Below, in pieces: positions 7,580-35,444 of a stretch of DNA of 52,228 bases. Position 1 is the first letter of the stretch, and each line of letters starts with the position of its first letter. The notes beneath the pieces were generated by a model. It was not told the origin of the DNA. It saw only the letters and a list, made by a program, of their open reading frames with translations, and did not search any database. Source of the stretch: Candidatus Hydrogenedentota bacterium (GTDB lineage: Bacteria > Hydrogenedentota > Hydrogenedentia > Hydrogenedentales > JAJRTN01); contig JAJRTN010000088.1 in assembly GCA_024278275.1 (NCBI GenBank), positions 1 to 52,228 of the forward strand, given 5' to 3'. The translations under genes were made by a program, and so were the position numbers.

Positions 7580-8797
7580 CTAAAGAAACCGCCTTTTCCC
7601 CACGCGAAGCGCCACCCCCTGGGCCGCCAGCAGCCCCGCCACCACCCAAGGTGTGTGGTGGAGGAGCAATTCCATTGGGTAATGCAACGCCAACAGGGCG
7701 AAGCTCTGCGCGCCCAAAAGGCCACCCAGCCCAACCAGGGTTTCATTGATCGCCGTGCGGCCGTGTTTCTTGGCCGGATTCGACATGCCGTAGTAGACGG
7801 CGGAGAAGAAGGCCGCGCCGCCAAAGAGTCCCAGGACCGCGTAAACGAGGACCATCACGGCCAGGCTGTGGGTGTCTCCGAGGAGCCAGAGTCCCGCGGC
7901 GCAGACCAACTGCAAGCCCGCGAGATAGCGGAAACGGTGATGCCAGAACGCCGTCTTCCCCATGGCGAGGAAGGCCGCGCAACTGGCGAAGGACAGGGCG
8001 AAGGACATAGCGGCGAAGATACTGGCCTCATGGTGTTGAAGATAGACAGGGGCTTGTTCCTCTCCGAAAAGGCGAAGCGCGCCCGTCTCCACCAGGTCCT
8101 TCAGCCGTTTGGCATAGACCATGCGGGCCACGCCCACCATGGCCCACGCGCTCATGTTGGCAATCCAGGCCGCGTGAAGACAGGACTCCCCCAAGCGGTC
8201 GTGGTCCGCCCGTGCGTCGAGCTGCTCCGCCGTCGCCTCGCCGTGGTGCGCCTTCTCGTGGGGCACGGTGAGGATGAGCAGCGCGCAGGCGGCGCCCACC
8301 ATACCCACCGCCAGGAAGGGCAAGCCCAGGTGCATGTCATAGAGGAAACCACCGGCCAGGGGGCCTAGGGCCAGCCCCGCGCTCCACGCGATGTTGAACT
8401 CCCCCATGATGCGCGCCCGTCTCCGGGGGTTCGGCTCGCCCCCCATCCAACTGTGCATGGCGGGCCAGGCAATGGAGTTGCCCATGGTGCCCACGGAAAG
8501 CACCGCGCCGAAAAGCACCGGCTGGCGGCACCAGAAAGACAAGGCAAAGAGACTGCAATTCATGAAGGCCCCCGCCGCGGCCCACGGCATGGGGCGCTTC
8601 ATACCCCCGAGAAAGCGCAGCGACGCCAGGCAACCCAGTGCGTAGGCACCCGAGGTGATGGCGCCAATGGTGCCCGACATGGTCTCCGTACCGTCCAGCA
8701 GGTCGTAGATGAAGAAGGGCATGACGGTGATGGTAATGCCCACGGCGAAGTCAAGCAGAAAAGCGGCCGCGCAAAGGCGGTGATGTGGTTGAAGCAT
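7580..8797 (-). CDS. Major facilitator superfamily transporter
   Basis: Inner-membrane carrier of 405 residues with 11-12 predicted helices in two halves separated by a hydrophilic loop (about residues 185-215, HEKAHHGEATAEQLDARADH). The first half has an arginine-rich cytoplasmic stretch (GGEPNPRRRARIMGEFN), where MFS proteins usually carry charged loop motifs. It is the first gene of a tight operon with two sulfatases, which suggests uptake of a desulfated sugar or export of a product, but substrate is not identifiable. The leader just before the ATG is the edge of a dispersed repeat (CCGGGTTAGG), which here supplies the only Shine-Dalgarno-like sequence. Confidence 0.85.
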   Translation of the reverse strand: MLQPHHRLCAAAFLLDFAVGITITVMPFFIYDLLDGTETMSGTIGAITSGAYALGCLASLRFLGGMKRPMPWAAAGAFMNCSLFALSFWCRQPVLFGAVLSVGTMGNSIAWPAMHSWMGGEPNPRRRARIMGEFNIAWSAGLALGPLAGGFLYDMHLGLPFLAVGMVGAACALLILTVPHEKAHHGEATAEQLDARADHDRLGESCLHAAWIANMSAWAMVGVARMVYAKRLKDLVETGALRLFGEEQAPVYLQHHEASIFAAMSFALSFASCAAFLAMGKTAFWHHRFRYLAGLQLVCAAGLWLLGDTHSLAVMVLVYAVLGLFGGAAFFSAVYYGMSNPAKKHGRTAINETLVGLGGLLGAQSFALLALHYPMELLLHHTPWVVAGLLAAQGVALRVGKRRFL

Positions 8798-8805
8798 GTA
8801 AGTTA

Positions 8806-8945
8806 CCTAACCCGGTCAAGCCGAAACCAAGAATCGTCTCCACGGAAAACCGTGGTTCCGAAGCAACGTAGAAGCGGCTGAAAGCCGCTTCTACGTTATC
8901 GTGACCATTCATACAGAACTTCACGGGTAAGGGACCAACCCGGCA
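8806..8945 (-). repeat. Dispersed intergenic repeat, copy A (with hairpin insertion)
   Basis: Read on the minus strand this region aligns with the 43.2 kb copy through CACGGGTAAGGGAC (complement), the GGAACCACGG...CCGTGGAGACGATTC block and the CCGGGTTAGG end. In place of the central GCCTCCGCC segment of copy B it holds a perfect 33-base hairpin (8865-8897). It fills most of the 190-base gap between the MFS gene and the sulfatase at 8988. Confidence 0.75.
8865..8897. repeat. Perfect inverted repeat, 15-bp stem with GAA loop
   Basis: Arms 8865-8879 (AACGTAGAAGCGGCT) and 8883-8897 are exact reverse complements around a 3-base loop. No T-tract follows on either strand, so an intrinsic terminator is unlikely. 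It interrupts dispersed repeat copy A and resembles REP-type palindromes. Confidence 0.8.
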
Positions 8946-8987
8946 CAGCGGGGAGCGAGGAGTCGCAGGAGGCGTTTCAGCGCACCC

Positions 8988-10400
8988 TCATCCTGCATCC
9001 AACCGCGTTCCGTCACGGCCCGTGGACCAGGCGGCGTGAAAGGCCGTGTCGCCATGCCGCGCCATCCATTCGGCGAGCCGCTCCCCCAGGGCCCGTTGCC
9101 GCGCCGCGGTTTCGGCATGGCCCGCCAGGTTATTCATCTCGTCCGGATCCCGCCGCAGGTCGTACAACTCATCATCGAAATCCAGGTAGCGGTTGTACTT
9201 GAAGGCCGCCGTGCGAATCATGCGGATGGGATTCACCCAGCGCTGCTTGTTGTAGTACTGGCTCACCACGAAGTCACGCGCTACCACGTCGCCCTGTCCC
9301 GTCAAGAGGGGCAAGAGTGAAGTGCCATCCACCTTGCCCACGGGCGCGGAGGCCAGTTCACAGAGGGTGGGGGCGAGGTCCGCCAGGGTCACTAACGCGT
9401 CCGCCTTTCCCGGTGCCCGGCCGCCGAAGGCGCGGGGCAGCCGCACCAGGAGGGGGACGCGCACCAGGTGCTCGTACATGAACGGTCCCTTGAACACGAG
9501 CCGGTGGTTCGTGTCCATGTCGCCATGGTCCGCCGTGTAGACCACCACGGTGCTTTCCTTCAACCCCAGCGCGGCAAGCCGGTCGAGCACGCGCCCCGCT
9601 TCAATATCCACCAGGCGGCATTTCTCCCGGTAGAAATCGCGGTAGAGGCGCCACGCGCCAGGCCCTTTGTCCACGATGAAAGCGCCCTGGTCCTCCTTCA
9701 TGAATTGCGCCTGCGGCGCGGGCTTCGACGACAGGTCATCCGCCCACGATGCAGGTAAGGGAACGCCGGGCATGTCGGCGTGATCACCCGCCGCTTTCAG
9801 TGCCCCGTTCACGTCATAAATATCATGGGGATTGACGTAGTTCACGAAAAGCGCGAAGGGTTTGTCCGCGGCCGCACACCGCTCCAGGTAGCCCAGCGCC
9901 AATTCCGAGATGGCCCCGTCGCCATGGAAGTCCAGGGCCGATTCGTCGAAGTGGGTGGCGAAATACGCCCGGTTGCCCAGGTGCCACTTACCGAAGTAGG
10001 CCGTGTGATAGCCCGCCGACCGCAACCGGGACGCCACCGTCTCCGTGCCCACGGGCAACCCGGGGATGGGAACACCCTGGTGGTCGATGGAACCCAGGTT
10101 TCCGATCACGCCCGTGCGGTGGGGATAGCGGCCCGTGTAAATCGACGCCCGGCTCGGCGAGCATTGGGGCGTGGTGCAGTGGGCGTGGGTGAAAAGCGTA
10201 CTCTCCGCCGCCAGGGCGTCCAGATTTGGCGTGTGGAAAAAATCGTCCAAGCAGCCCAGGGCCCGCCAATGCTGCTGGTCCGAGCAGATGACCAGTATAT
10301 TCGGGCCTTTCCCGCCCCCCTTCCCTGGTACGGTTTGACATGCTGCCAGCGTGACGGTCGCGCTGGATGCGAGAAAACTTCGCCTGTTTAACTTGAACAT
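8988..10400 (-). CDS. Type I sulfatase, predicted Tat-exported lipoprotein
   Basis: Sulfatase of 470 residues. The start chosen (ATG complement of 10398-10400) is preceded by CAGGAAAG and gives a leader combining a twin-arginine motif (NRRSFL, residues 5-10) with a lipobox LAAC (Cys21), so the enzyme is probably exported folded and lipid-anchored. The metal site reads SDQQ (Asp41, Gln42) instead of the usual DD, as in choline-sulfatase-like and related subfamilies. The formylglycine motif is CSPSR with Cys80; GKWHLG and YTADHGDMD follow. The longer in-frame extension upstream lies within the preceding gene and lacks a leader, so it is rejected. The gene starts 19 bases after the TIM-barrel-like gene, indicating cotranscription. 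Confidence 0.92.
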   Translation of the reverse strand: MFKLNRRSFLASSATVTLAACQTVPGKGGGKGPNILVICSDQQHWRALGCLDDFFHTPNLDALAAESTLFTHAHCTTPQCSPSRASIYTGRYPHRTGVIGNLGSIDHQGVPIPGLPVGTETVASRLRSAGYHTAYFGKWHLGNRAYFATHFDESALDFHGDGAISELALGYLERCAAADKPFALFVNYVNPHDIYDVNGALKAAGDHADMPGVPLPASWADDLSSKPAPQAQFMKEDQGAFIVDKGPGAWRLYRDFYREKCRLVDIEAGRVLDRLAALGLKESTVVVYTADHGDMDTNHRLVFKGPFMYEHLVRVPLLVRLPRAFGGRAPGKADALVTLADLAPTLCELASAPVGKVDGTSLLPLLTGQGDVVARDFVVSQYYNKQRWVNPIRMIRTAAFKYNRYLDFDDELYDLRRDPDEMNNLAGHAETAARQRALGERLAEWMARHGDTAFHAAWSTGRDGTRLDAG

Positions 10401-24836: not shown

Positions 24837-26096
24837 CTATCCGGGGGGTTGTTCGTCCCCCGCAAGACGGGTGTCACCGGAACTCTTGGGGCCGGCAAGC
24901 ATCACGAGAAAAAGTCCGGCCACGAGAATGCACGGGTAGTAGTGGGACAGGCTCGTGACGAGGAAATCAAAGCCGAAGGGACGAATAGGGATGGGGGATA
25001 TGCCCAGCAGGAGAATGAGGACAAGCCTTCCATCGACGGCGGCAACGCGGCTTGCCACGAGGTAGGCGGGTAGCAATGCGAGGACGTATTCGTAGAGATT
25101 GACACGGGGGAGTAGAAGGAGGTAACTCAGCACGGCCAGGACAACCGTGTCCTGCCGCCACTGTGCGCCGAATGCACCACGGCGCCGGACGACGGACCAC
25201 GTGAGGAGGAGAAGTACGGTCATGGCGAAAGCGATGTAGAGCAGCTTGGGAATCCCGGGGGGAACGTGGATTCCCGTTTCCGCCTGCAATGCCCCGAGCG
25301 TGCCTTGAATGGCGCCCAGGGAAGAGACGAAGTTGACGGGGCCGGCCGATGCGCTTCCCGCGGGAACGCCGGGAACGTGACGGAGGCTTCCCAGGTAGGC
25401 GCGCCAGAGCGACGGGTTAAAGACGACGCCCAACGCAGTAACCAGCAGGAAGGGCAGGGCGACGAGGATGAGCCGGAGCCAGTTGACCGAGCGCCGGACG
25501 GGCAGGAGAAGGACCAGAAAGAAAAGGGGGGTCAGCTTGATGGAGGCGACGAGGAGGGTGATCGCGAGGAAAAGGCCCCACTTTTCCTCGCGGTAACACC
25601 AGAAGGCGAACCAAAGGCCCAGGACGGCGAACAGGCTGATGTTGCCCGATTCGAGGTCGAAGGTGAGGGCGTAGTTGAAGCCGATAAGGCAAAGAAGGAG
25701 AAAGAGGCCGTCGAAACGGGCGCGGAGGAATGCGCGGGTCCACAGGGTCATCAGGCCCGCGAGGGCGCATGCTTTCAAACCGGCATAAGCCGTGGCGGCG
25801 GCGGTGTAGTCCAAGTACGTAAAAACGCGGAAAATGGACAACCAGAAAGGGGGATAGAGGAAGGGACGCATGAAAGAAACGTTGGCGACTTGGGCGACGG
25901 CGGCGGGATCGTATGGATTCTCCCCTTGGGCGTGGGCCATGGCAGTCCAGTAGTACATTCGGAAGTTGACTTGGCCGCCTTCGGGGTTCAGGGCGATCCG
26001 CGCCAACATCAGGAGCAGGTAGAGTAGGGCGAGCGCCCCCAACGCCGCGGACAGCTTGGGGCCAACCCGGAACGTTGGGGCTTCGGTGTTCCGCAT
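24837..26096 (-). CDS. GT87-type (DUF2029) membrane glycosyltransferase
   Basis: Polytopic inner-membrane protein of 419 residues with about 9-11 hydrophobic helices. The first periplasmic loop carries NFRMYYWTAMAHAQGENPYDP, the DUF2029/GT87 signature in which a Tyr/Trp-rich stretch precedes NPYDP, followed by FLYPPFWLS. GT87 enzymes are predicted to use polyprenyl-phosphate mannose or a similar lipid-linked sugar and to add it on the outer face of the membrane. It is the last cistron of the acylation operon, 29 bases behind the carrier-protein gene, so it may build or decorate the glycan that is acylated. The donor sugar is inferred from the family only. Confidence 0.82.
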   Translation of the reverse strand: MRNTEAPTFRVGPKLSAALGALALLYLLLMLARIALNPEGGQVNFRMYYWTAMAHAQGENPYDPAAVAQVANVSFMRPFLYPPFWLSIFRVFTYLDYTAAATAYAGLKACALAGLMTLWTRAFLRARFDGLFLLLCLIGFNYALTFDLESGNISLFAVLGLWFAFWCYREEKWGLFLAITLLVASIKLTPLFFLVLLLPVRRSVNWLRLILVALPFLLVTALGVVFNPSLWRAYLGSLRHVPGVPAGSASAGPVNFVSSLGAIQGTLGALQAETGIHVPPGIPKLLYIAFAMTVLLLLTWSVVRRRGAFGAQWRQDTVVLAVLSYLLLLPRVNLYEYVLALLPAYLVASRVAAVDGRLVLILLLGISPIPIRPFGFDFLVTSLSHYYPCILVAGLFLVMLAGPKSSGDTRLAGDEQPPG

Positions 26097-26125
26097 GCGT
26101 TTCTCCTCGTCCCACTCGCTTGGAC

Positions 26126-26368
26126 TCAGGTCCCCACCTTGCTTTCCACGAATCGCCGGATGCGCTCCATGGTGTCGAGATTGTTGAGGCTCACCTCGGT
26201 GGGCTTGAGCCGAATGTCCGCGGACCTTTCGATAAACTCAATCAGATCGACCATGCTGAAGGAGTCCAGCAGACCTTCCTGGAAAAGGGAGGTGTCCGGG
26301 GCAAGCTCCTCCTCGGAAAGGCCACAGTGCTCCACGAGAAAGTCGATCAGGGCGCGTGTGCTTAGCAA
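26126..26368 (-). CDS. Acyl carrier protein, DltC-like
   Basis: Small phosphopantetheine-binding carrier of 80 residues. The start is TTG (complement of 26366-26368) with a strong GGAGGAG site (26374-26380) about 5 bases upstream; the frame is open further 5' but that part lies inside the ligase gene. The attachment motif is LLDSFSMVDL with Ser36, very close to the LDS(F/M) motif of D-alanyl carrier proteins, and the helix LIEFIE follows. It starts 34 bases after the AMP-forming ligase, its presumed loader. It is not a fatty-acid-synthesis ACP by context. The cargo (D-alanine, another amino acid or a fatty/organic acid) cannot be read from sequence. Confidence 0.86.
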   Translation of the reverse strand: MLSTRALIDFLVEHCGLSEEELAPDTSLFQEGLLDSFSMVDLIEFIERSADIRLKPTEVSLNNLDTMERIRRFVESKVGT

Positions 26369-26402
26369 GATAACTCCTCCGGGAGCGGTGCGGGGTCCGC
26401 TC

Positions 26403-27968
26403 TCATGAATCCCTGGCAAGAGAACGATGGATAACCTGAAGACGATCCACTTTTCCCGTGGCCGCCCGTGGCATGGCTTCATCCCAAACATGCAGCTTGC
26501 GGGGAAACATGTACGCGGGCATATGCTTCCGGCAGTACTGCATAATGGCATCCGGGTCCACGGGCGGACCCTCCGACCGGACGGCCACGTGAACCACTTC
26601 ACCCAGGCGTGGGTCGGGCACGCCAAAAGCGACGGCATTTCCCTCAAGACCGCTCTCGTAAATGATTTCCTCCACTTCCGTGGGGCTGATCCGGTAGCCG
26701 CTGCATTTTATCATGGCCTCCACGCGGCCCACGAACCAGAGATAGCCCTCTTCATCCATGCGTACAATATCGCCGCTGTAATGAACTTTTTCATCGCCGA
26801 TGAGATAGCGCAAGGGCTCGCAGGAACGGATCTTTTCCGCCGTCGCCTCGGGCCGGTTCCAGTAGCCCTTGGTCACGAGTGTGCCGCGATGGATGAGTTC
26901 CCCCTGCTCGCCCGGGCCACAAATATGGCCGTCGGATCCAATCAGGAAAACATCCACGTTGGGACACGGTTTTCCAAGAGAGCCCGCTTTCCGGTGATAC
27001 GCTTCGGGAGGGAGGTAGGTCGAACGAAATGCCTCGGTAAGGCCATAGGTCAGCACAATGCCGGTCTCCGGGAAAACCCTGGGCAAAGCCCTCAGCGTGG
27101 CGTCGGGGATTTTGCCTCCGGAGCTGGTGATATACCGGAGCGAGGGCAGCGGGGTGGGCTTGGCCTCGAGCAGTTGGACCATGTCGATCCAGGTCTCGGG
27201 GAAGGCCGCCATCCCGGTGACATCGTGAGCCTTGAGCGTGCGGAGAATCTCCGCGGGAAAGGGGGTGGGCTGCAACACCACCGCCCCCCCCACCAGGAAC
27301 ATGGTGGTCAGTTGAATCACGCCCCACGGAGCACTCAACGGCACCAGGCCAAGGATGCGATCATCGGACGTGTTCTCGAGATACTGGGCCACCCGGCGCG
27401 TGCCGTCCACGAGGTTTGCATGGGTAATCATGACGCCCTTGGGCATGCCGGTCGACCCGGAGGTGTAGAGCAACGCCGCGAGATCCTGATCGATCGGGCG
27501 CGGGTGGCCGGCGCCTTCACCTTCCCGGGGCAATGTATCCCATGGAACGACGTTCGGTTCACCCTCGATGGGTGCCGGCGTGACAACGTGTCGAAACCGG
27601 TCGAGCCAACCCTCTCCGGCAATCTGAATCGCACGGCGTGTGTCGGTGAACAGGATTTCGCACTGACAATCGTCGACAATGTAACGCAATTGCCGCGTAG
27701 TACGTTGCGGGCTGATGTTGACAAAAACGGCGCCAATCTTGGCAACGGCGAAGGTTGCGACGACCTCTTCGACCGATTTCCGCAGGTGGATGGCAACCCG
27801 GTCCCCCCTGCGTACCCCCCGCGCCTGGAGCCACACCGCCGCGCCGTTCACCCGTCCATGCAGTTCATCGTAGGTAACCCGCTCGGTGCCATGCACCAGG
27901 GCTGTCCGCGCGCCCGCTTCCGGAAGTTGCGACATGAGCGTATCGTGGACCGTGTATACAACACGCAT
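26403..27968 (-). CDS. AMP-forming acyl/aminoacyl ligase, DltA-like
   Basis: ANL-superfamily adenylating enzyme of 521 residues, expected to activate a carboxylic acid with ATP and load it on the carrier encoded next. Core motifs are complete: A3 LLYTSGSTGMPKG (167-178), A5 YGLTEAFRS, A7 HYSGDIVRMDE, A8 GRVEAMIKCSGYRI, and A10 PRAATGK with the catalytic Lys at 506. Length and context fit DltA; the sequence also resembles the exosortase-associated acyl-CoA ligase family (YLPPEAYHRKAGSLGKP region), so acyl selectivity is open. It starts 45 bases after the MBOAT gene. The start MRVVYTVHDTL is at an ATG; no better start was seen. Confidence 0.9.
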   Translation of the reverse strand: MRVVYTVHDTLMSQLPEAGARTALVHGTERVTYDELHGRVNGAAVWLQARGVRRGDRVAIHLRKSVEEVVATFAVAKIGAVFVNISPQRTTRQLRYIVDDCQCEILFTDTRRAIQIAGEGWLDRFRHVVTPAPIEGEPNVVPWDTLPREGEGAGHPRPIDQDLAALLYTSGSTGMPKGVMITHANLVDGTRRVAQYLENTSDDRILGLVPLSAPWGVIQLTTMFLVGGAVVLQPTPFPAEILRTLKAHDVTGMAAFPETWIDMVQLLEAKPTPLPSLRYITSSGGKIPDATLRALPRVFPETGIVLTYGLTEAFRSTYLPPEAYHRKAGSLGKPCPNVDVFLIGSDGHICGPGEQGELIHRGTLVTKGYWNRPEATAEKIRSCEPLRYLIGDEKVHYSGDIVRMDEEGYLWFVGRVEAMIKCSGYRISPTEVEEIIYESGLEGNAVAFGVPDPRLGEVVHVAVRSEGPPVDPDAIMQYCRKHMPAYMFPRKLHVWDEAMPRAATGKVDRLQVIHRSLARDS

Positions 27969-28013
27969 GCCGGATGATCCTTCCTTTTGCCCCGCAGTCT
28001 GTTTCGCCCAAGG

Positions 28014-29243
28014 CTACAACGTGCCCGAAGGCAAGTCAACCCCCATTAACTTAAAGAGAATCCTGAATGCCTGATACGTGCCATAGCGGTACTCAATGAC
28101 GAGAAAACTCACGCTCGGCATGATGTAGGCCAGCGTGACCAGCGAGGACAGGCAACGCCACAACGGCCCTTTGGGCAGGCACCAGCGTTTTCGCCGCGCG
28201 TGGCGTGACCATGCCATGTAGATGATGACCCCCGTGGCCTGGTACAGCCCCCAGCAGACGCGCCCGAGCGTTGCCGCATGCCAAATCCCCATAACCAAGA
28301 AAGACGAGTACGCCGCCAGATAGGGATTCCGGGTAACACCGATCATGGGAATGTATACATAGGTTTGGCACCAATTCGAGAGTGAAATGTGCCACCGTTT
28401 CCAGTACTCAGCGGTGTTGACCGCGAAAAGGGGAAAACGGAAGTTCTCCATGATGCGGATACCGTAGAGGCGGCTTATACCGATGGCAATGTCGGAATAG
28501 GCGCTGAAATCAACGTAAATCGTCAGATAAGTCAGAACGATATAGCCCCACACTTTGTAGAAGGGGGCAAATTCCAGGGCGTCAAGGACATGACCAACGT
28601 CGCTCGATTTTCCAAGCGCCGGCGAGAGGATGAGACCATTGATCACCATCTGCTTTACCAGGCCGTGAACAACGCGCGTGAGGCCTTCCACCGTTGTGTC
28701 CAGCCGCCACCGCGTTTCCCGGGAAGCCAGGTAATGATCGAAACGTTCTATGGGGCCCGCGGTGAATATGGGGAAGAGAAAAACGTAACAAAGAAAATCC
28801 TGGAGCCGATGGCCGGACAATTCGCCGCGGGACAACTCGATCACGTAGTGCAGTAGTTTGAACGAAAAATAGCTGATTCCCAGTGGAACAAGCACCCGCG
28901 TCGTTGGCGACGTTTCCGATAGGGAAGCGAGGAGCCCGGGCACATACTTGAAGTAGGCCAGGTAAGCACATACCGTCAAGATAAGGCTGGCGGTCACCCA
29001 CCGCGCCGATGCCGCCGGCCGCATCGAGACGGGGCCAACGAAGTAAACAACAAGGGAGATGAGCAGGAATGCCACAAGATGCCAACCCGCGAGACTCGCC
29101 AGGTATCCGAAGGAAAGCAAGGCCAGGAATCCGGGCCGAAAGCGGCTTGGCAGGGACCAAAACAGCGGCACGGAAACCGCCGTCAGAATCCAGAATGTGG
29201 GTGATTGAATCAAAGCGGGTAGACCTCGAAGCGGGGCCGGCAC
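28014..29243 (-). CDS. MBOAT-family membrane O-acyltransferase, DltB/AlgI-like
   Basis: Polytopic inner-membrane acyltransferase of 409 residues with about 11 helices. It carries both family histidines: His285 in EYWKRWHISLSNW and the catalytic-channel His322 in MGIWHAA. FVGP and FPIFTAGPIERF are also typical of DltB/AlgI proteins, which pass an acyl group from a cytosolic donor to an acceptor on the outer face. The annotated start is GTG at 29243; a TTG at 29213 with GAGGT 9 bases upstream is an equally good alternative. It lies between a 45-residue peptide gene (30 bases upstream) and the ligase gene, matching the DltX-DltB-DltA-DltC set of parts. Confidence 0.92.
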   Translation of the reverse strand: MPAPLRGLPALIQSPTFWILTAVSVPLFWSLPSRFRPGFLALLSFGYLASLAGWHLVAFLLISLVVYFVGPVSMRPAASARWVTASLILTVCAYLAYFKYVPGLLASLSETSPTTRVLVPLGISYFSFKLLHYVIELSRGELSGHRLQDFLCYVFLFPIFTAGPIERFDHYLASRETRWRLDTTVEGLTRVVHGLVKQMVINGLILSPALGKSSDVGHVLDALEFAPFYKVWGYIVLTYLTIYVDFSAYSDIAIGISRLYGIRIMENFRFPLFAVNTAEYWKRWHISLSNWCQTYVYIPMIGVTRNPYLAAYSSFLVMGIWHAATLGRVCWGLYQATGVIIYMAWSRHARRKRWCLPKGPLWRCLSSLVTLAYIMPSVSFLVIEYRYGTYQAFRILFKLMGVDLPSGTL

Positions 29244-29273
29244 ACAACGCCGCCTGCCCCATTCATGAGAAGC

Positions 29274-29411
29274 CTAAAAGGCCTGATAACGGAACAGCCG
29301 CTCGGCGGCATTGGCGCCCAGCAACCGGCCTATGGCGAAAAAAAGCGCCAGTCCCATCACAATGGCCTGCAAGGTCATACCCGCCCATTTAGCGTGTCTT
29401 GGTTGTATCAA
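29274..29411 (-). CDS. 45-residue single-span peptide ending in FxYxxF, DltX-like
   Basis: Short gene between the SGNH and MBOAT genes. The start used is TTG (complement of 29409-29411), with GGAAAGG overlapping the SGNH stop as ribosome-binding site; an in-frame ATG at 29378 gives a 34-residue form. The product has a basic N-terminus (IQPRHAKW), one hydrophobic segment (about residues 13-33, LQAIVMGLALFFAIGRLL) and a C-terminus ending exactly in FRYQAF. DltX peptides of Gram-positive D-alanylation operons have the same size, topology and FxYxxF ending, whose Tyr is reported as the acyl relay between DltB and DltD. Coding status rests on position, ribosome-binding site and this motif; no homologue search was possible. 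Confidence 0.75.
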   Translation of the reverse strand: MIQPRHAKWAGMTLQAIVMGLALFFAIGRLLGANAAERLFRYQAF

Positions 29412-29417
29412 GGGATG

Positions 29418-30512
29418 TCACCTTTCCTCGCGTGCCTTCAGCAACCGGGATACTTCTTGGGCAAGAAGGCCCGTGTACCGTTCAATGGCGGCCCTGTTCT
29501 GGAGGTGCGCCGAGTCGGCAAAGTCCCCGGGCGACAAGCGTGCCCGTGAATCCAACCGCCAGTATTCGGCGCCAAAGGCCGATGTCAATTCGAGCACATC
29601 CTTCTCATAGAGCGCTTTAGCCTCCAGATATACGGGATCACGCCTCCCCACCTCATCGCACAGGGGATTTCGGGGAGCCTCCAACAGGACCATGGAAACC
29701 CGATCCCCGGCTAACGCCCCCAGCATTCGGCGAAACACGCCAAGGTGTGTTTCCCGAAGGTTCCGGTAGTCTTGTACCCAGGCCAACCGCTGATGAATAC
29801 CAAGGTCAAGGGCCTTGCCACGTATTGTCCGCCAGTTCTGAGACCGGTTGTACCGGACCTCCCGAGGTCCGGCAATAAGGTTAAGAAGGGCGGCGGGGCG
29901 ACTGAAAAAAAACCTATAATTATCCAGAAACAGATTGCCCAACCGGTCTGGAACGACGGCGCCCGACGCCCGGAGTTGTTCATCAAGGCACCCGTTTCCG
30001 AACAGGATGCGTGGTTGGCGTGCAAGGCCGGGGATCCAGTCAAGCGACCGCGCGAAATGGCCGGGCGCAACCTCGATAATGACCACGCCACGCATCTTGG
30101 AGCCCAGTGTGCAGGTGATGGCAGCCATCTCCCAGTCGGTGAGGCCCTCGGCCAACATGGGGATCAATTTCACCTTTTTGCGGCCCGTATGCTGGATTTG
30201 GGCGGCCAGCAGGGGGAAGGACAGGCTCTCGCGCATCGCCGATGCACCAAGCAGTACCACGGCCTCGGGCAACTCGGTCTCCGTGGCCATGGAAAGAATC
30301 TGTGTCGTCAGGTAGCCATAGCTGTCATCGGCGTTTTCGACCAGGTAACCAAGACCATGCCGTCCCAGGAATTGAGGGGTCAAAAGAAACACGCAAACCG
30401 TGAAGGCCAACACGCAAACAAGCACGGTGCCCGATAACGCGGGAAGAGAAGGCTTGACGAGTCCGTCCTTGAAGGCCAGCAAGACATTCCGTGCGGGATG
30501 CGCTTCATGCAT
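29418..30512 (-). CDS. Membrane-anchored SGNH-fold protein, DltD-like
   Basis: Protein of 364 residues with one N-terminal transmembrane segment (about residues 25-46) and a large extracytoplasmic domain. The SGNH nucleophile motif is LLGASAMRES with Ser91, and the Asp-His pair is DSAHL near the C-terminus (Asp333, His336), as in DltD and alginate-acetylation SGNH proteins. It would take the acyl group delivered by the MBOAT protein and place it on a periplasmic glycan. It is the first gene of the operon. The ATG (30512) has GGAAAG about 9 bases upstream. The next gene starts 6 bases after its stop. The subfamily is inferred from context as overall similarity to DltD is low. Confidence 0.8.
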   Translation of the reverse strand: MHEAHPARNVLLAFKDGLVKPSLPALSGTVLVCVLAFTVCVFLLTPQFLGRHGLGYLVENADDSYGYLTTQILSMATETELPEAVVLLGASAMRESLSFPLLAAQIQHTGRKKVKLIPMLAEGLTDWEMAAITCTLGSKMRGVVIIEVAPGHFARSLDWIPGLARQPRILFGNGCLDEQLRASGAVVPDRLGNLFLDNYRFFFSRPAALLNLIAGPREVRYNRSQNWRTIRGKALDLGIHQRLAWVQDYRNLRETHLGVFRRMLGALAGDRVSMVLLEAPRNPLCDEVGRRDPVYLEAKALYEKDVLELTSAFGAEYWRLDSRARLSPGDFADSAHLQNRAAIERYTGLLAQEVSRLLKAREER

Positions 30513-31156
30513 AGCGTTGCTTTCCAGTTCGTCGGGGTCTGAGAGTACTTTATTCGCATGCTGCTTTTCGAATTCCCCTGGATTCCCCCCCGGGCTGGAT
30601 CAATAATATCTCGGGAACCGCCGGGTACCTGCAAGAATGTCCGCGCCGGGGGGAAAATCCTGCATGAAAGCCGGCGGGAAAAGTGCTCCTGGTTTCCCGG
30701 GGACGCCGAAAACAGCGGCTGGCCGGGATAGGACCGCAATGGCACGGGCATTGCTCTGCTTGGAGCGTGTTGGTCCTTGACCCATGAAGTTCTGTACAAA
30801 TGATCGCGAAAAGGTGTTTGCCCACCCTCCGTCATTCCCGCGAACACGGGAAAGGTCAAGGGATTGCCCCTGTCATGGAACCCCGTTTTGGCGGGGGTGG
30901 CGGTGGGTCGTGGTACGGACGGCGGTTGTGATTCCCGGTTCCGGCTACGCCGGGTTGGGCAGACTGTACAAAATGTCCATGACGGTACTTGAAGAATGGG
31001 GAAAACGGTCGATGCCCCGTGTGGACTTCTTAAGCACATTCTTGGATGGAGCATTCGGAAAACCGTGATGATCTTCCGGGCATGCCGTCATATCGCGAAT
31101 AACACGGGCTGGCGCTTCGCCGCTTCGGGTACCAGGCGCCATGGAGGAAAATGCCG
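30513..31156. other. Intergenic region between acylation operon and LysM/M23 gene
   Basis: About 640 bases between divergent genes. It holds a long-form dispersed repeat (30791-30961). No gene is supported, and I could not define a convincing promoter for either side; GGAGG at 31143 belongs to the gene at 31157. Confidence 0.6.
30791..30961 (+). repeat. Dispersed intergenic repeat, copy C (long form)
   Basis: Starts TCTGTACAAATGATCGCGAA, then GGTGTTTGCCCACC, a core ATTCCC-N8-GGGAAA, GGGATTGCCCC, GTGGGTCGTGGTACGGACGG, and ends GATTCCCGGTTCCGGC with CCGGGTTGGGC. Block order equals the 18.7 kb copy, and the ends equal the 43.2 kb copy. A second ACTGTACAAA lies just past the end (30963-30972), so the element may be bounded by short direct repeats. 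Confidence 0.78.
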
Positions 31157-32095
31157 ATGAATCTGGAAGCGTTGATCGTGCTGCCGCAGGTGTCGCAGGT
31201 CATTCGAAGCCGTGCCATTCACGTGGTTCGCAACCGATTCGCCGCGCCCGATTTTCCCCGGGCCCTGGCGGAAGCCGTGCCGGAGCACCGTGATCCCCCG
31301 GCGGCGGCCGCCGCTTATACCGTGAAGCGGGGCGATTTTCTCACCCGCATTGTGCGGGAGCACCTTCGTGCTCAAGGCCGCGAGGTAAACAACCGGGCCG
31401 TTTTGGACGGACTAAAGCGTGTCGCCGCAGCCAACGGCATCCAGGATCCCGACCTGATCTATCCCGGCCAACGCATAGACCTTTCCATCCTGGATAGAAC
31501 GGACGGTTCCGCCCGGAGCGCCTTTGAGGGAAAGGGCGGCAGGGTGCCGGGGACGGCCGTCCGGCCTCGTGCAGACGATTTTACCGAATCCAATCGGGTC
31601 CGCACGGCAATCGCCCGTGTCCTGGACCGTGAAATCCCGTCCAATGTCCCGGCCACCGCTGCGAACCGGCAAGCCGAACCCTGGAGCGGTGTCCTTGGCA
31701 TGGAAGCCAGGCTCACGTCACCCTATGGTTACCGGCGCGACCCCTTCACGGGCGGTATGCGCTTCCACCATGGCATCGATTTGGCCGTACCCACCGGCAC
31801 CACGGTTCATCCCGTCGGCGCGGGCGAAGTTGTTTTCAGCGGCTGGAAGCCCGGTTATGGCCGTGTTGTCATCGTTCGCCACGGCGAGGGAATCGAATCC
31901 GTTTACGGCCACACCTCGAAAACCCTTGTGAGGGCGGGTGAGTACGTGAATCCCGGCGATACCATTGCCCTCAGCGGCTCATCCGGCCGTTCCACCGGTC
32001 CCCACCTCCACCTTGAGATACGCCGCGACGGACGGGCATTGAATCCGTTGGCCTACTTCGACGAAGATCATATCCGGCTGGCCCGAAGCCATTGA
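31157..32095 (+). CDS. LysM and M23 peptidase domain protein
   Basis: Predicted cell-wall endopeptidase of 312 residues. LysM spans about residues 52-112 (YTVKRGDFLTRI...LIYPGQRIDL) and the M23 domain about residues 190-300, with HHGIDLAVPTG (His and Asp zinc ligands) and GPHLHLEIRRDG (HxH). The start is placed at the ATG 31157, nine bases after GGAGG; the ATG at 31151 is too close to that site. No signal peptide is evident: the N-terminus (MNLEALIVLPQVSQVIRSRA) is only moderately hydrophobic, so export may use another route, for example the flagellar apparatus, which is speculation. The neighbour 60 bases downstream is a GT2 gene. Confidence 0.88.
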   Translation: MNLEALIVLPQVSQVIRSRAIHVVRNRFAAPDFPRALAEAVPEHRDPPAAAAAYTVKRGDFLTRIVREHLRAQGREVNNRAVLDGLKRVAAANGIQDPDLIYPGQRIDLSILDRTDGSARSAFEGKGGRVPGTAVRPRADDFTESNRVRTAIARVLDREIPSNVPATAANRQAEPWSGVLGMEARLTSPYGYRRDPFTGGMRFHHGIDLAVPTGTTVHPVGAGEVVFSGWKPGYGRVVIVRHGEGIESVYGHTSKTLVRAGEYVNPGDTIALSGSSGRSTGPHLHLEIRRDGRALNPLAYFDEDHIRLARSH

Positions 32096-32155
32096 ACCCC
32101 GCCGTTCCAGCGCTTTTCGAGTAACGCACGGGCCACAGCCGGTGTAACTGTTGGT

Positions 32156-32887
32156 ATGGAGCACGACGAAACGAGCCTCGACTCACCGCCGAAGGGTCTC
32201 ACCGCGATCATCCCCTGCTATAACGCCGGTGCGCGCCTTCGGCCCGTGGTGGAAGCCGCTCTTCCCCGTGTGCAACGGGTGATCGTCGTCGATGACGGCA
32301 GTTCCGACGGTGCGGCGGACGGCCTGGAGGCCTTGGGGGCGAAGGTCGTCCGCCTGGAGACCAATCGGGGCAAAGGACACGCTCTGTTGATGGGCATCGC
32401 CGCCGCCTTGGAGGCGGAAGAGACCGGCGCCGTTTGTCTTCTCGACGCGGACGGACAGCACGATCCCGCCGAGATCCCCGCGCTGTACGAAACCTTGTCG
32501 CGGGAACAAGCCGATCTCGTCATCGGGTCGCGCGTTTTCGACGGCGACGTTCCCTGGCGCAGCCGCCTGGGAAACCGGATCACCGTGGCCGTATCGGGCC
32601 GGCTCCTGGGGCATCGCCTCCCCGACACGCAATCGGGCTTCCGGATGCTCTCGCGCCCTTTTGCCGAAGCCGTGCTCGCCTCCGTGCGCGGCGGGCGCTA
32701 TGAAACGGAAATGGAGATGATCGTTTTCGCCGTGCGTGGCGGATTCCACATTGTCCCCGTGCCCATCCGCACCATCTACGAGACAGGGAACACCTCCTCC
32801 CACTTCCGCAGGGTGCGGGACTCCTTCCTCATCTATTCGCGCCTGGTTCGCGCCCTCCTGCGGCATCGCCCGTCAGGCCAGGGCTAA
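32156..32887 (+). CDS. Family 2 glycosyltransferase, dolichyl-phosphate mannose synthase-like
   Basis: Cytosolic or membrane-associated GT-A enzyme of 243 residues. Motifs include AIIPCYNAG (nucleotide-sugar binding), VVDDGSSDG, the metal-binding DAD in CLLDADGQHDP, and GSRVF. There is no C-terminal membrane segment. Its type commonly makes polyprenyl-phosphate hexose, which would be the donor needed by a GT87 enzyme such as that at 24837-26096; this link is inference since the genes are 6 kb apart. The last 15 bases overlap the convergent, broken sulfatase gene. Confidence 0.9.
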   Translation: MEHDETSLDSPPKGLTAIIPCYNAGARLRPVVEAALPRVQRVIVVDDGSSDGAADGLEALGAKVVRLETNRGKGHALLMGIAAALEAEETGAVCLLDADGQHDPAEIPALYETLSREQADLVIGSRVFDGDVPWRSRLGNRITVAVSGRLLGHRLPDTQSGFRMLSRPFAEAVLASVRGGRYETEMEMIVFAVRGGFHIVPVPIRTIYETGNTSSHFRRVRDSFLIYSRLVRALLRHRPSGQG

Positions 32888-34314
32888 CGTATCGCCCATT
32901 TCGTCCTGTAACGCCAGGAGCTTTCGCCACAGGTCCGCCATTCGTTCCGCATGGGCCGGGTCTTCCGAGAGATCGTGCATCTCCTCCGGATCGTTGTTGA
33001 GATCAAAGAGCACCCGCTGATCCAGCGGGGGATAGTAGATGAGCTTGAAACCGTTGGCGCAAACCATGCGTTGCAGGTTCATGTACGCACCGTAGATGGC
33101 ATCGTACTGCCGGATCCGCTCGCCTCGGAGCAGCGGCAGGAGGCTCTTGAATTGCACCTGCTCCGGGACAGGCACGCCTGCCAGTTCCAGCGTGGTGGGC
33201 ATGATATCCTGCAGGTAAATGGGCGTCGTGACGCGCCGATCTTTCGCAATACCCGGCCCCGCCACCGTGAAGGGAACCCGCACGCTGTGGTCGTAAAGGT
33301 TCTGCTTCCCCATGAGGCCGTGATGCCCCACGGCCAGGCCCTGGTCGGAGGTGAAGAAAACGACGGTGTTTTCCGCCTTGCCCGTTTCATCCAGCGCCGC
33401 CAGGATGCGCCCGATCTGCGCGTCGAGGTGGGAAATGATGGCGAAGTACTCCCGGCGATGGGTACGGACCGCGTGCTCCGTGCGCGGGATCGGTGCCAGG
33501 GCTTCATCCCGGGTGGCCTCGGTACAACCGATGGCCTCCCGGTTGGGGTGGTCCGGCTGAAAGTTGGCCGGGAGCCGGATATCATTCAAAGCGTAGCGGT
33601 TGATGTATTCCCCCGGGCTCTGGCGCGGGTCGTGGGGCGCGTTGAAGGCCAGGTACATGAAGAAAGGCTTGTCGCGGTCCGCCGCCTGCCTGAGCAGCAT
33701 TTCCGCATCGTCCGCCAATGCCTCGCTCCAATGTTTCCCCCCCGACCAGTGCCCCCCGAACTTTGGGTCCGTCGGGTCCCAGGGATCGCTTCCATCGGCC
33801 TTGGGCCGGTGATAGGCTTCCGGCACCTGGTTCGGCAGGGAAGGCGGCATTCCCCCGGTCGAATCGTCGCCGTATAATCGAAGAGTGGTTTCGGGTCCGT
33901 CTCAATATGCCATTTCCCCGTGAAATACGTTTCGTATCCCGCTTCGCGCAGGTACTGGGGCCAGAGGCGGCCCGCGTCCCGCTCCGCGTCCAGCCGCTTT
34001 TCGGCGGCCCCGGCATTCCAGAGGAAACGCCCCGTAAGCATCATGGTGCGGCTGGCCACGGAAAGCGCCCCATGCCACCCGCCCTGGTTGTAGGCGTGGG
34101 TAAAGCTGGTACCCCGCCGGACCAGCCGGTCCAGGTTCGGCGTGTATACTTCGTCGAAGCCCATGGCATGGATGGTCTCATACGACTGGTCGTCGGTGAA
34201 GATGAACAGGATATTGGGCGGTTTGCCCGCCGTGCGCGGCGCGGCGCCACCACCCCCTGCCGCCCACAACGCACCCATGCCCAAACTTCCCAAGAACGTC
34301 CGCCTGTTCATCAT
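32873..34314 (-). pseudogene. Sulfatase gene with frameshift and Cys-to-Ser change at active site
   Basis: Two reading frames together make one type I sulfatase of about 480 residues. The N-terminal frame (34314 to about 33857) has a Tat leader (NRRTFLGS), DDQ metal site and TGKWH. The C-terminal frame (about 33850 to 32873) has FLSHL-like DAQIGRIL, FFTSDQGLAVG, GKQNLYDHSVRVPF and LFDLNNDPEEM. They join at a run of five G on the coding strand (33852-33856); one extra G would restore RPGGMPPS. The formylglycine position reads LSVASRTMMLTG with Ser85 (codon 34060-34062, TCC) where relatives have Cys. Either change alone could be tolerated or an error; both together suggest decay. The start has AAGGTGG upstream. 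Confidence 0.8.
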
Positions 34315-34442
34315 GGTATTCCACCTTTTTGTTAAAAGGATTGCCTGTGATATTCGGCCGATCCGACTGACTCTCTCCGTTGTGATACCATAGCTTGCCG
34401 ATGCGTTGTGTGCAAATGTCGCGCCACCATGGGAGTTCAGCA

Positions 34443-35444
34443 ATGCGATATTGCGTCCCTTTTCTTTTCATGCTCCTCGCCGGTTGCGGGGCCAAGGATG
34501 TCGTGGTTGTTTACAGCCCCCACGGCAAGGACGTGTTGGGCGATTACGAAAAGCTCTTTGAAGCGGCCCATCCCGGCGTGGATGTGCAATGGCTGGACAT
34601 GGGTTCGAAGGAAGTGCTGAGCCGGGTCCGCGCCGAGCGGAACCGTCCCGCCGCCGATGTCTGGTGGGGCGCGCCTTCCACCATGTTCGCCCAGGCGGCG
34701 CGGGAAGGGTTGCTCGCGCCATACCGGCCCACCTGGGCCGATAAGGTGGGGCCTGCCTTCAAGGACGGGCAGGACCGGTGGTACGCGACCCACCGCTCGC
34801 CCCTGTGCATCATGTACAACACGCGCCGTTACTCGCCGGCGGAGGTTCCCCAATCCTGGGATGAACTCCTGGAGCCAAAGTGGAAGGGTTTGGTCAGTAT
34901 TCGGGAACCCCTCGTTTCCGGCACCATGCGCACCTTCATCTGCGCCATGATCGACCGGGCGCCATCGGAGGATGAAGGCATCGCCTGGCTGCGGAAGCTC
35001 GATGCGGCCACGAGCGACTACCTGGAAAGCCCCAACCTCCTCTTCGACCACCTGAAGAAAAACGACGACCACGTCAGTGTGTGGCTCATGCCCGACGTGG
35101 TGTTGCAGCGCGACCGCAACGGTTTTCCCTTCGGCTACCATATCCCCAGCCCGACCCCGGTCGTGACCGAGGGCATCGCCATCGTCGAGGGCGCGCCCCA
35201 TCCCGAACGGGCCAGGGAATTCTATGAGTTTGTTACCACTCAATCCGCGCTGATTCACCAGGCGCAGGCCTATGCCAAGCTGCCCGCCCGTCACGACATG
35301 GACCGGACCAGGCTCCCCGCGGAGTTGACGGAGCAGGATTTCACGCCCATGGACATCGACTGGAATCGCTTCGCCGCCAAGGAAAAGGAATGGTGTGGGC
35401 GATGGGAACGAGAGGTTCGGGCCGCGGGACGTTCGCGCCCATGA
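34443..35444 (+). CDS. ABC transporter solute-binding lipoprotein (iron/thiamine/putrescine-like, family 1)
   Basis: Periplasmic binding protein of 333 residues with a lipoprotein leader (MRYCVPFLFMLLAGC, Cys15). The fold is of the Fe3+/thiamine/polyamine type: VVVYSPHGKDVL at the mature N-terminus, ADVWWGAPSTMF, YNTRRYSPAEVPQSWDELLEPKWKG, which is the characteristic hinge block, and VTEGIAIVEGAPHPE. The start at 34443 is chosen for the signal; the upstream in-frame Met at 34395 adds a hydrophilic stretch. Its stop overlaps the ATP-binding gene by four bases (ATGA). Ligand is unknown. A permease gene expected next to it is missing. Confidence 0.88.
   Translation: MRYCVPFLFMLLAGCGAKDVVVVYSPHGKDVLGDYEKLFEAAHPGVDVQWLDMGSKEVLSRVRAERNRPAADVWWGAPSTMFAQAAREGLLAPYRPTWADKVGPAFKDGQDRWYATHRSPLCIMYNTRRYSPAEVPQSWDELLEPKWKGLVSIREPLVSGTMRTFICAMIDRAPSEDEGIAWLRKLDAATSDYLESPNLLFDHLKKNDDHVSVWLMPDVVLQRDRNGFPFGYHIPSPTPVVTEGIAIVEGAPHPERAREFYEFVTTQSALIHQAQAYAKLPARHDMDRTRLPAELTEQDFTPMDIDWNRFAAKEKEWCGRWEREVRAAGRSRP

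Follow-up and report, generated by a model that had tools for sequence, protein, structure and literature searches.

A putative carrier-fed envelope acylation operon with a separate shuttle microprotein in Candidatus Hydrogenedentota

What is encoded by a row of six minus-strand genes, resembling the D-alanylation (Dlt) operon of Firmicutes, in a bacterium of apparently Gram-negative type? We addressed this question for a stretch of 52,228 nucleotides from Candidatus Hydrogenedentota (contig JAJRTN010000088.1, assembly GCA_024278275.1), which is called the window below. We conclude, at a probability of roughly 0.77, that the operon specifies a relay for envelope acylation that is fed by a carrier and made up of a ligase, this carrier, an MBOAT acyltransferase, a tyrosine-bearing microprotein and an SGNH protein. 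Judged by sequence, 'Dlt' would here mean 'works like' and not 'is'.

The source genome is 5.35 Mb in size and 96% complete, and the window is its contig C48. Its near relatives are Candidatus Hydrogenedentota, and LpxC is present, so a lipopolysaccharide (LPS) type outer membrane is expected. Both points agree with the preliminary description of this DNA, which had called the genome apparently Gram-negative.

Gene layout and the proposed relay

From position 30512 down to 24837 the operon encodes a putative SGNH acyltransferase of 364 amino acids (29418..30512), a DltX-like acyl-shuttle microprotein of 45 (29274..29411), an MBOAT acyltransferase of about 399 (28014..29213), a ligase of 521 (26403..27968) that forms adenosine monophosphate (AMP), an acyl carrier protein of 80 (26126..26368) and, as a lineage-specific addition, a GT87 glycosyltransferase of GT-C type of 419 (24837..26096). 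The microprotein and carrier genes start with TTG. The MBOAT gene may start at GTG 29243, giving 409 amino acids, or at TTG 29213, giving about 399; the latter is more likely because homologues begin with 'MIQS'. With the GTG start the intergenic gaps are 6, 30, 45, 34 and 29 nucleotides, and with the TTG start the corresponding gap is 60. Shine-Dalgarno-like stretches precede most of the genes, namely GAGGAAAGG upstream of the microprotein, AAGGAAGGA upstream of the ligase, GGAGGAG upstream of the carrier and GAGGAG upstream of GT87. Pfam matches were obtained for MBOAT (3e-21), AMP-binding (6e-80), PP-binding (6e-6) and GT87 (PF09594, 7e-16). The SGNH protein had no match in Pfam or NCBIfam, including none to the NCBIfam DltD model.

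The residues on which a relay would depend are invariant: the catalytic Ser, Asp and His, the shuttle Tyr, both MBOAT histidines and the carrier Ser. In the SGNH protein these are S91, D333 and H336, which together with G89 are unchanged among nine aligned sequences (G89xS91, D333xxH336). The microprotein has a single hydrophobic stretch, predicted to span the membrane once, and ends in FRYQAF, with F40, Y42 and F45 kept across its aligned relatives. His285 and His322 (409-amino-acid numbering) are invariant across eight MBOATs, as is D-S-F of the LLDSF phosphopantetheine site among carrier homologues. The ligase, assigned by its TIGR03098 score and by alignments, has the catalytic Lys506 and the A4 motif SAPWG. 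In the AlphaFold2 model of the SGNH protein (predicted local distance difference test, pLDDT, 84; predicted template modelling score, pTM, 0.83), residues 23-43 form an N-terminal membrane helix; all AlphaFold2 predictions were made on single chains. All six open reading frames thus lie where the preliminary description had placed them and in its order, and its membrane anchor, its 45-residue FxYxxF peptide and its 80-residue LLDSF carrier were recovered. Its range of 6 to 45 bases for the gaps holds with the GTG start of the MBOAT gene but not with the likelier TTG start.

Within the window, 617 open reading frames have at least 25 amino acids, and only that of the microprotein ends in FxYxxF. 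Since this ending recurs in every relative from the 10 other genomes, each next to the same partner genes, a chance open reading frame was rejected. A fused C-terminal shuttle motif is present in none of the 11 operon MBOATs, and the intact second MBOAT of the same genome (contig C98, with an SGNH neighbour) carries it as FIYFVF. Because the operon MBOATs lack what this other MBOAT has in fused form, the microprotein would supply the missing part. In a further MBOAT-SGNH pair of the genome, on contig C150, the MBOAT is split between two reading frames, and FIYFQF lies in the separate, apparently frameshifted one.

PatA and DltB-DltX provide the mechanistic precedent; an acyl-Tyr has been shown for PatA, and DltX supplies DltB with a C-terminal shuttle motif (PMC12148441). 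By family chemistry, the ligase would adenylate a carboxylic acid and load it onto the phosphopantetheine of the carrier. By analogy with DltB/DltX and PatA, the MBOAT would then take over the carrier-bound acyl group and, through His322, transfer it across the inner membrane to Tyr42 of the microprotein; from there it may reach Ser91 of the SGNH protein, which is anchored in the membrane. The latter would esterify a periplasmic or surface acceptor, which in Hydrogenedentota might conceivably be a glycan extended by GT87. The general signature of MBOAT-SGNH systems, an MBOAT and an SGNH protein together with a C-terminal FxYxxF acyl-shuttle motif, was found in the operon.

Conservation of the gene set and its relation to Dlt

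The SGNH, microprotein and MBOAT genes occur together in 11 genomes of Hydrogenedentota, Planctomycetota and Gammaproteobacteria: 4/68 Hydrogenedentota, 4/397 genomes of the Phycisphaerae class, one other planctomycete and 2/369 Gammaproteobacteria. This patchy distribution may reflect horizontal spread. A related carrier adjoins the trio in 10/11 genomes, and a ligase of TIGR03098 or DltA type is likewise found in 10/11; the SGNH protein and the ligase co-occur in 4/68 Hydrogenedentota genomes. All five components are together in the window and in loci L020, L022, L023, L024, L025, L026, L052 and L057. Locus L022 of Candidatus Parabeggiatoa and the three planctomycete loci L024-L026 were found by scanning genome contigs with the MBOAT alignment, and in each of them the microprotein ends in FxYxxF. 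The SGNH protein is also present in two genomes of the Phycisphaerae class (G083, G140) and one gammaproteobacterium (G709), with microprotein, MBOAT and carrier beside its gene; the only nearby AMP ligase in G140 is a distant one of 454 amino acids. Gene order varies, as the microprotein gene lies ahead of the SGNH gene in L025, and L057 (G709) reads carrier, pyridoxal phosphate (PLP) decarboxylase, an uncharacterised stretch, ligase, SGNH, microprotein, MBOAT.

The complete set of six in order is found in three Hydrogenedentota genomes (the window's, G050 and G044). A fourth, G011 (L021), has the first four genes, and neither carrier nor GT87 was found on its contig, to which this observation is confined. 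GT87 is thus present in 3/4 Hydrogenedentota loci; it was not found at the operon loci of other phyla and was rejected as a core member there. Pairwise identities, taken as descriptive only, correlate at 0.86 for SGNH and microprotein, 0.77 for MBOAT and microprotein and 0.72 for MBOAT and carrier, compared with 0.27-0.61 for the ligase and other members. These values fit what may be a membrane relay of stable composition whose ligase is exchanged more readily.

Some further features of these loci were observed. The MBOAT gene of G044 (L013:8862-10049) has one internal stop, either a sequencing error or the mark of a pseudogene. In Parabeggiatoa, an FGE-sulfatase-like protein is encoded between MBOAT and ligase, and genes for a D-cysteine-desulfhydrase-like protein and a formyltransferase lie past the carrier (L022:4694-6058, 8059-10006). 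The Phycisphaerales locus L024 has a second SGNH and MBOAT pair, for which no microprotein could be recognised (L024:7343-9841).

Comparison with known structures points to Dlt. The best fold match of the SGNH model in the PDB is DltD (6o93, E 1.4e-5), and its top matches are DltD structures; a profile search against PDB sequences had given no match, and the likeness emerged by fold search. For the MBOAT, DltB was the only match in a PDB sequence search and also the best fold match of the model, with a template modelling (TM) score of 0.67-0.71. Sequence models and phylogeny place the operon MBOATs outside DltB, however. Against the DltB model TIGR04091 the window MBOAT scores 155 bits, under the cut-off of 375, and in an unrooted maximum-likelihood tree the 11 operon MBOATs form one clade (support 99/99.9), with Firmicutes DltB and a Klebsiella plasmid MBOAT grouping together (99/97). 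Support was 90/99 in an earlier tree from which Klebsiella had been left out. The Klebsiella branch is long, and its placement with the 11 was not rejected (approximately unbiased test, p-AU 0.14).

This Klebsiella MBOAT belongs to an operon on Klebsiella electrica plasmid NZ_CP041250.1 (L076:2733-6785), flanked by insertion sequence elements, with five genes arranged as in the window: DltD, a 40-amino-acid protein that ends in FEYQKF and is annotated only as hypothetical, MBOAT, ligase and carrier. An entire copy is present on an Enterobacter cloacae plasmid and a part on a K. pneumoniae plasmid, and none was found by megablast in 5,426 E. coli genomes. Unlike in the window, its MBOAT groups with DltB and its ligase scores 384-390 bits as DltA. 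In addition, dlt operons have been reported in the Gram-negative Dickeya, Pectobacterium and Photorhabdus (PMC3544676). Gram-negatives thus do have Dlt-like systems that are near to true Dlt, and that of the window is a separate relative of them. On plasmids, the window MBOAT matched fused-type and DltB proteins at only about 30% identity. A Sulfitobacter plasmid encodes, one after another, an AMP-binding protein, a 272-amino-acid hypothetical protein and a short MBOAT (L062:1-3553), with no FxYxxF; this is possibly another ligase-fed MBOAT system without such a protein. The Sulfitobacter sequence, which has a very long branch, is left out of the second MBOAT tree.

With Firmicutes Dlt (DltXABCD) the operon shares the ligase, the carrier, an MBOAT of about 400 amino acids without the C-terminal motif, a separate shuttle microprotein with one membrane segment and an anchored SGNH protein of DltD fold. 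It differs in gene order (D-X-B-A-C as against (X)A-B-C-D), in the separate clade of its MBOAT, in its exosortase-associated type of ligase with Pro at the amino-group site, and in its LPS-type organism. O-acetylation systems of the PatAB/AlgI type, of which fused-motif representatives occur in the same genome, also have an MBOAT, an SGNH protein and an acyl-Tyr in a C-terminal FxYxxF, but there the motif is fused to the MBOAT, carrier and ligase are absent and acyl-CoA is the donor (PMC12148441). A 2025 paper describes non-Dlt MBOAT/SGNH pathways as having neither a carrier protein nor a DltX-like microprotein (PMC12148441). The present operon family is an exception to this in Gram-negative phyla and indicates that the separate shuttle is not confined to DltB. 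We somewhat favour the view that it forms a third branch of MBOAT/SGNH acylation, carrier-fed, microprotein-shuttled and separate from Dlt, in which exchangeable ligases put amino and non-amino acyl groups on non-teichoic acceptors. Its five compact proteins could be used for reconstituting an acyl-Tyr relay with different cargo.

The ligase and the acyl group

The best family match of the window ligase is the exosortase-A-associated TIGR03098 (531 bits, under the cut-off of 592), and DltA models are absent among the 25 best NCBIfam matches listed. The carrier scores 33 and 28 bits against DltC models, with cut-offs of 68 and 52, respectively. The TIGR03098 cut-off was reached in no operon. 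Each genome with a named locus has one TIGR03098 match above 340 bits, located in the operon, with the exception of the genome of L026. The ligase of that operon is of the amino-acid-adenylation/DltA type, at 354 bits over the cut-off of that family and at 276 bits against DltA; two plasmid matches of this ligase that were inspected lie in other clusters, with no MBOAT. We know of no substrate for the exosortase-associated ligase family, and the operon points to a possible role for it.

The Asp that binds the alpha-amino group in gramicidin synthetase aligns with Pro214 of the window ligase. At this A4 motif the Hydrogenedentota ligases have SAPWG, those of L022, L024, L025, L026 and L057 have FD and that of L052 has FS. 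PLP enzymes acting on amino acids adjoin FD operons only, and comprise the D-cysteine-desulfhydrase-like protein of L022 and decarboxylases inside the operons of L024 (5992-7233) and L057 (2115-3365), which are closest to the exosortase-associated TIGR03099. Because Pro replaces the Asp of amino-acid-activating relatives, D-alanine is unlikely in Hydrogenedentota, where the activated acid is probably something other than a usual alpha-amino acid. Most other lineages keep the Asp, and the A4 residue together with the placement of the PLP enzymes suggests that lineages probably differ in the acyl group, with a non-amino acid in Hydrogenedentota and an amino acid in most others. The family offers a natural comparison of ligase specificity within one conserved relay.

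Rival readings and the acceptor

An operon for true D-alanylation, gained from Gram-positives and placing D-alanine on a surface polymer, would have the same five components. The matches of MBOAT and carrier to the DltB and DltC models, the plasmid operons of Klebsiella and Enterobacter in D-X-B-A-C order and the reported dlt genes of Dickeya, Pectobacterium and Photorhabdus (PMC3544676) are in its favour. We nevertheless consider it improbable and rejected a simple Dlt transfer, owing to the unmet cut-offs (155/375 bits for DltB, 33/68 for DltC), a ligase that scores as TIGR03098 and not as DltA, the Pro at the amino-group site and an MBOAT clade apart from DltB and Klebsiella. Of the Dlt-like relay put forward in the preliminary description, the anatomy, the invariant residues, the DltD and DltB folds and the co-conservation of five genes across several Gram-negative groups are upheld; identity with Dlt is not, and co-conservation of GT87 is limited to Hydrogenedentota. 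Far less probable still, and hardly to be entertained, is a chance microprotein frame among enzymes acting separately: the frame is short and starts with TTG, but across 11 genomes its sequence and motif are conserved next to the same partners, it has a strong ribosome-binding site, its identities track those of the SGNH protein (r 0.86), and the synteny contradicts independence. Against the proposed relay itself weigh the remote similarity of the modelled SGNH protein to DltD (12% identity, TM about 0.4), one of the four Hydrogenedentota loci (L021) that is without a carrier within its contig, and a single ligase-pocket residue that may be compatible with an unusual amino acid as well.

Other readings concern the acceptor. 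Ligase and carrier might be part of an exosortase-A/exopolysaccharide (XrtA-like) programme, with the operon modifying the linked exopolysaccharide. The nearest ligase family is exosortase-A-associated, relatives of the TIGR03099 decarboxylase occur in L024 and L057, and an exosortase is found in 10/11 operon genomes; strong matches occur in 4/4 operon-positive versus 24/64 operon-negative Hydrogenedentota (Fisher p 0.025, uncorrected for kinship). However, the operon ligases remain below the family cut-off and have an MBOAT, a microprotein and an SGNH protein as partners, no exosortase was seen within the operon loci and none was found in Parabeggiatoa, while exosortases are common in these phyla and congeneric genomes inflate the count. 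The preliminary description had named a firm grouping of ligase and carrier with exosortase-only loci as a point that would count against it; the ligase is indeed nearest to an exosortase-associated family, yet it is encoded in this operon instead of an exosortase locus. The association is suggestive only, we regard the reading as unlikely, and it is in any case compatible with the relay mechanism. In the window's own genome an exosortase adjoins a long TPR protein on contig C125.

GT87 enzymes are membrane glycosyltransferases using polyprenyl-phosphate sugars, and the one encoded here may extend the acceptor in Hydrogenedentota. That it makes a lipid-linked or periplasmic glycan serving as the specific acceptor is a tentative proposal. 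In three Hydrogenedentota operons the GT87 gene comes last, in the window 29 nucleotides past the carrier, and a GT2 resembling polyprenyl-phosphate-sugar synthases is encoded nearby (32156-32887); yet GT87 was not found in the other-phylum loci or in L021, and the GT2 gene is on the opposite strand. The latter and a LysM/M23 peptidase gene lie divergently upstream of the operon (31151-32887, plus strand). Beyond them, on the minus strand (32873-34443), a sulfatase is seemingly split in two overlapping frames (33586-34443 and 32873-33850).

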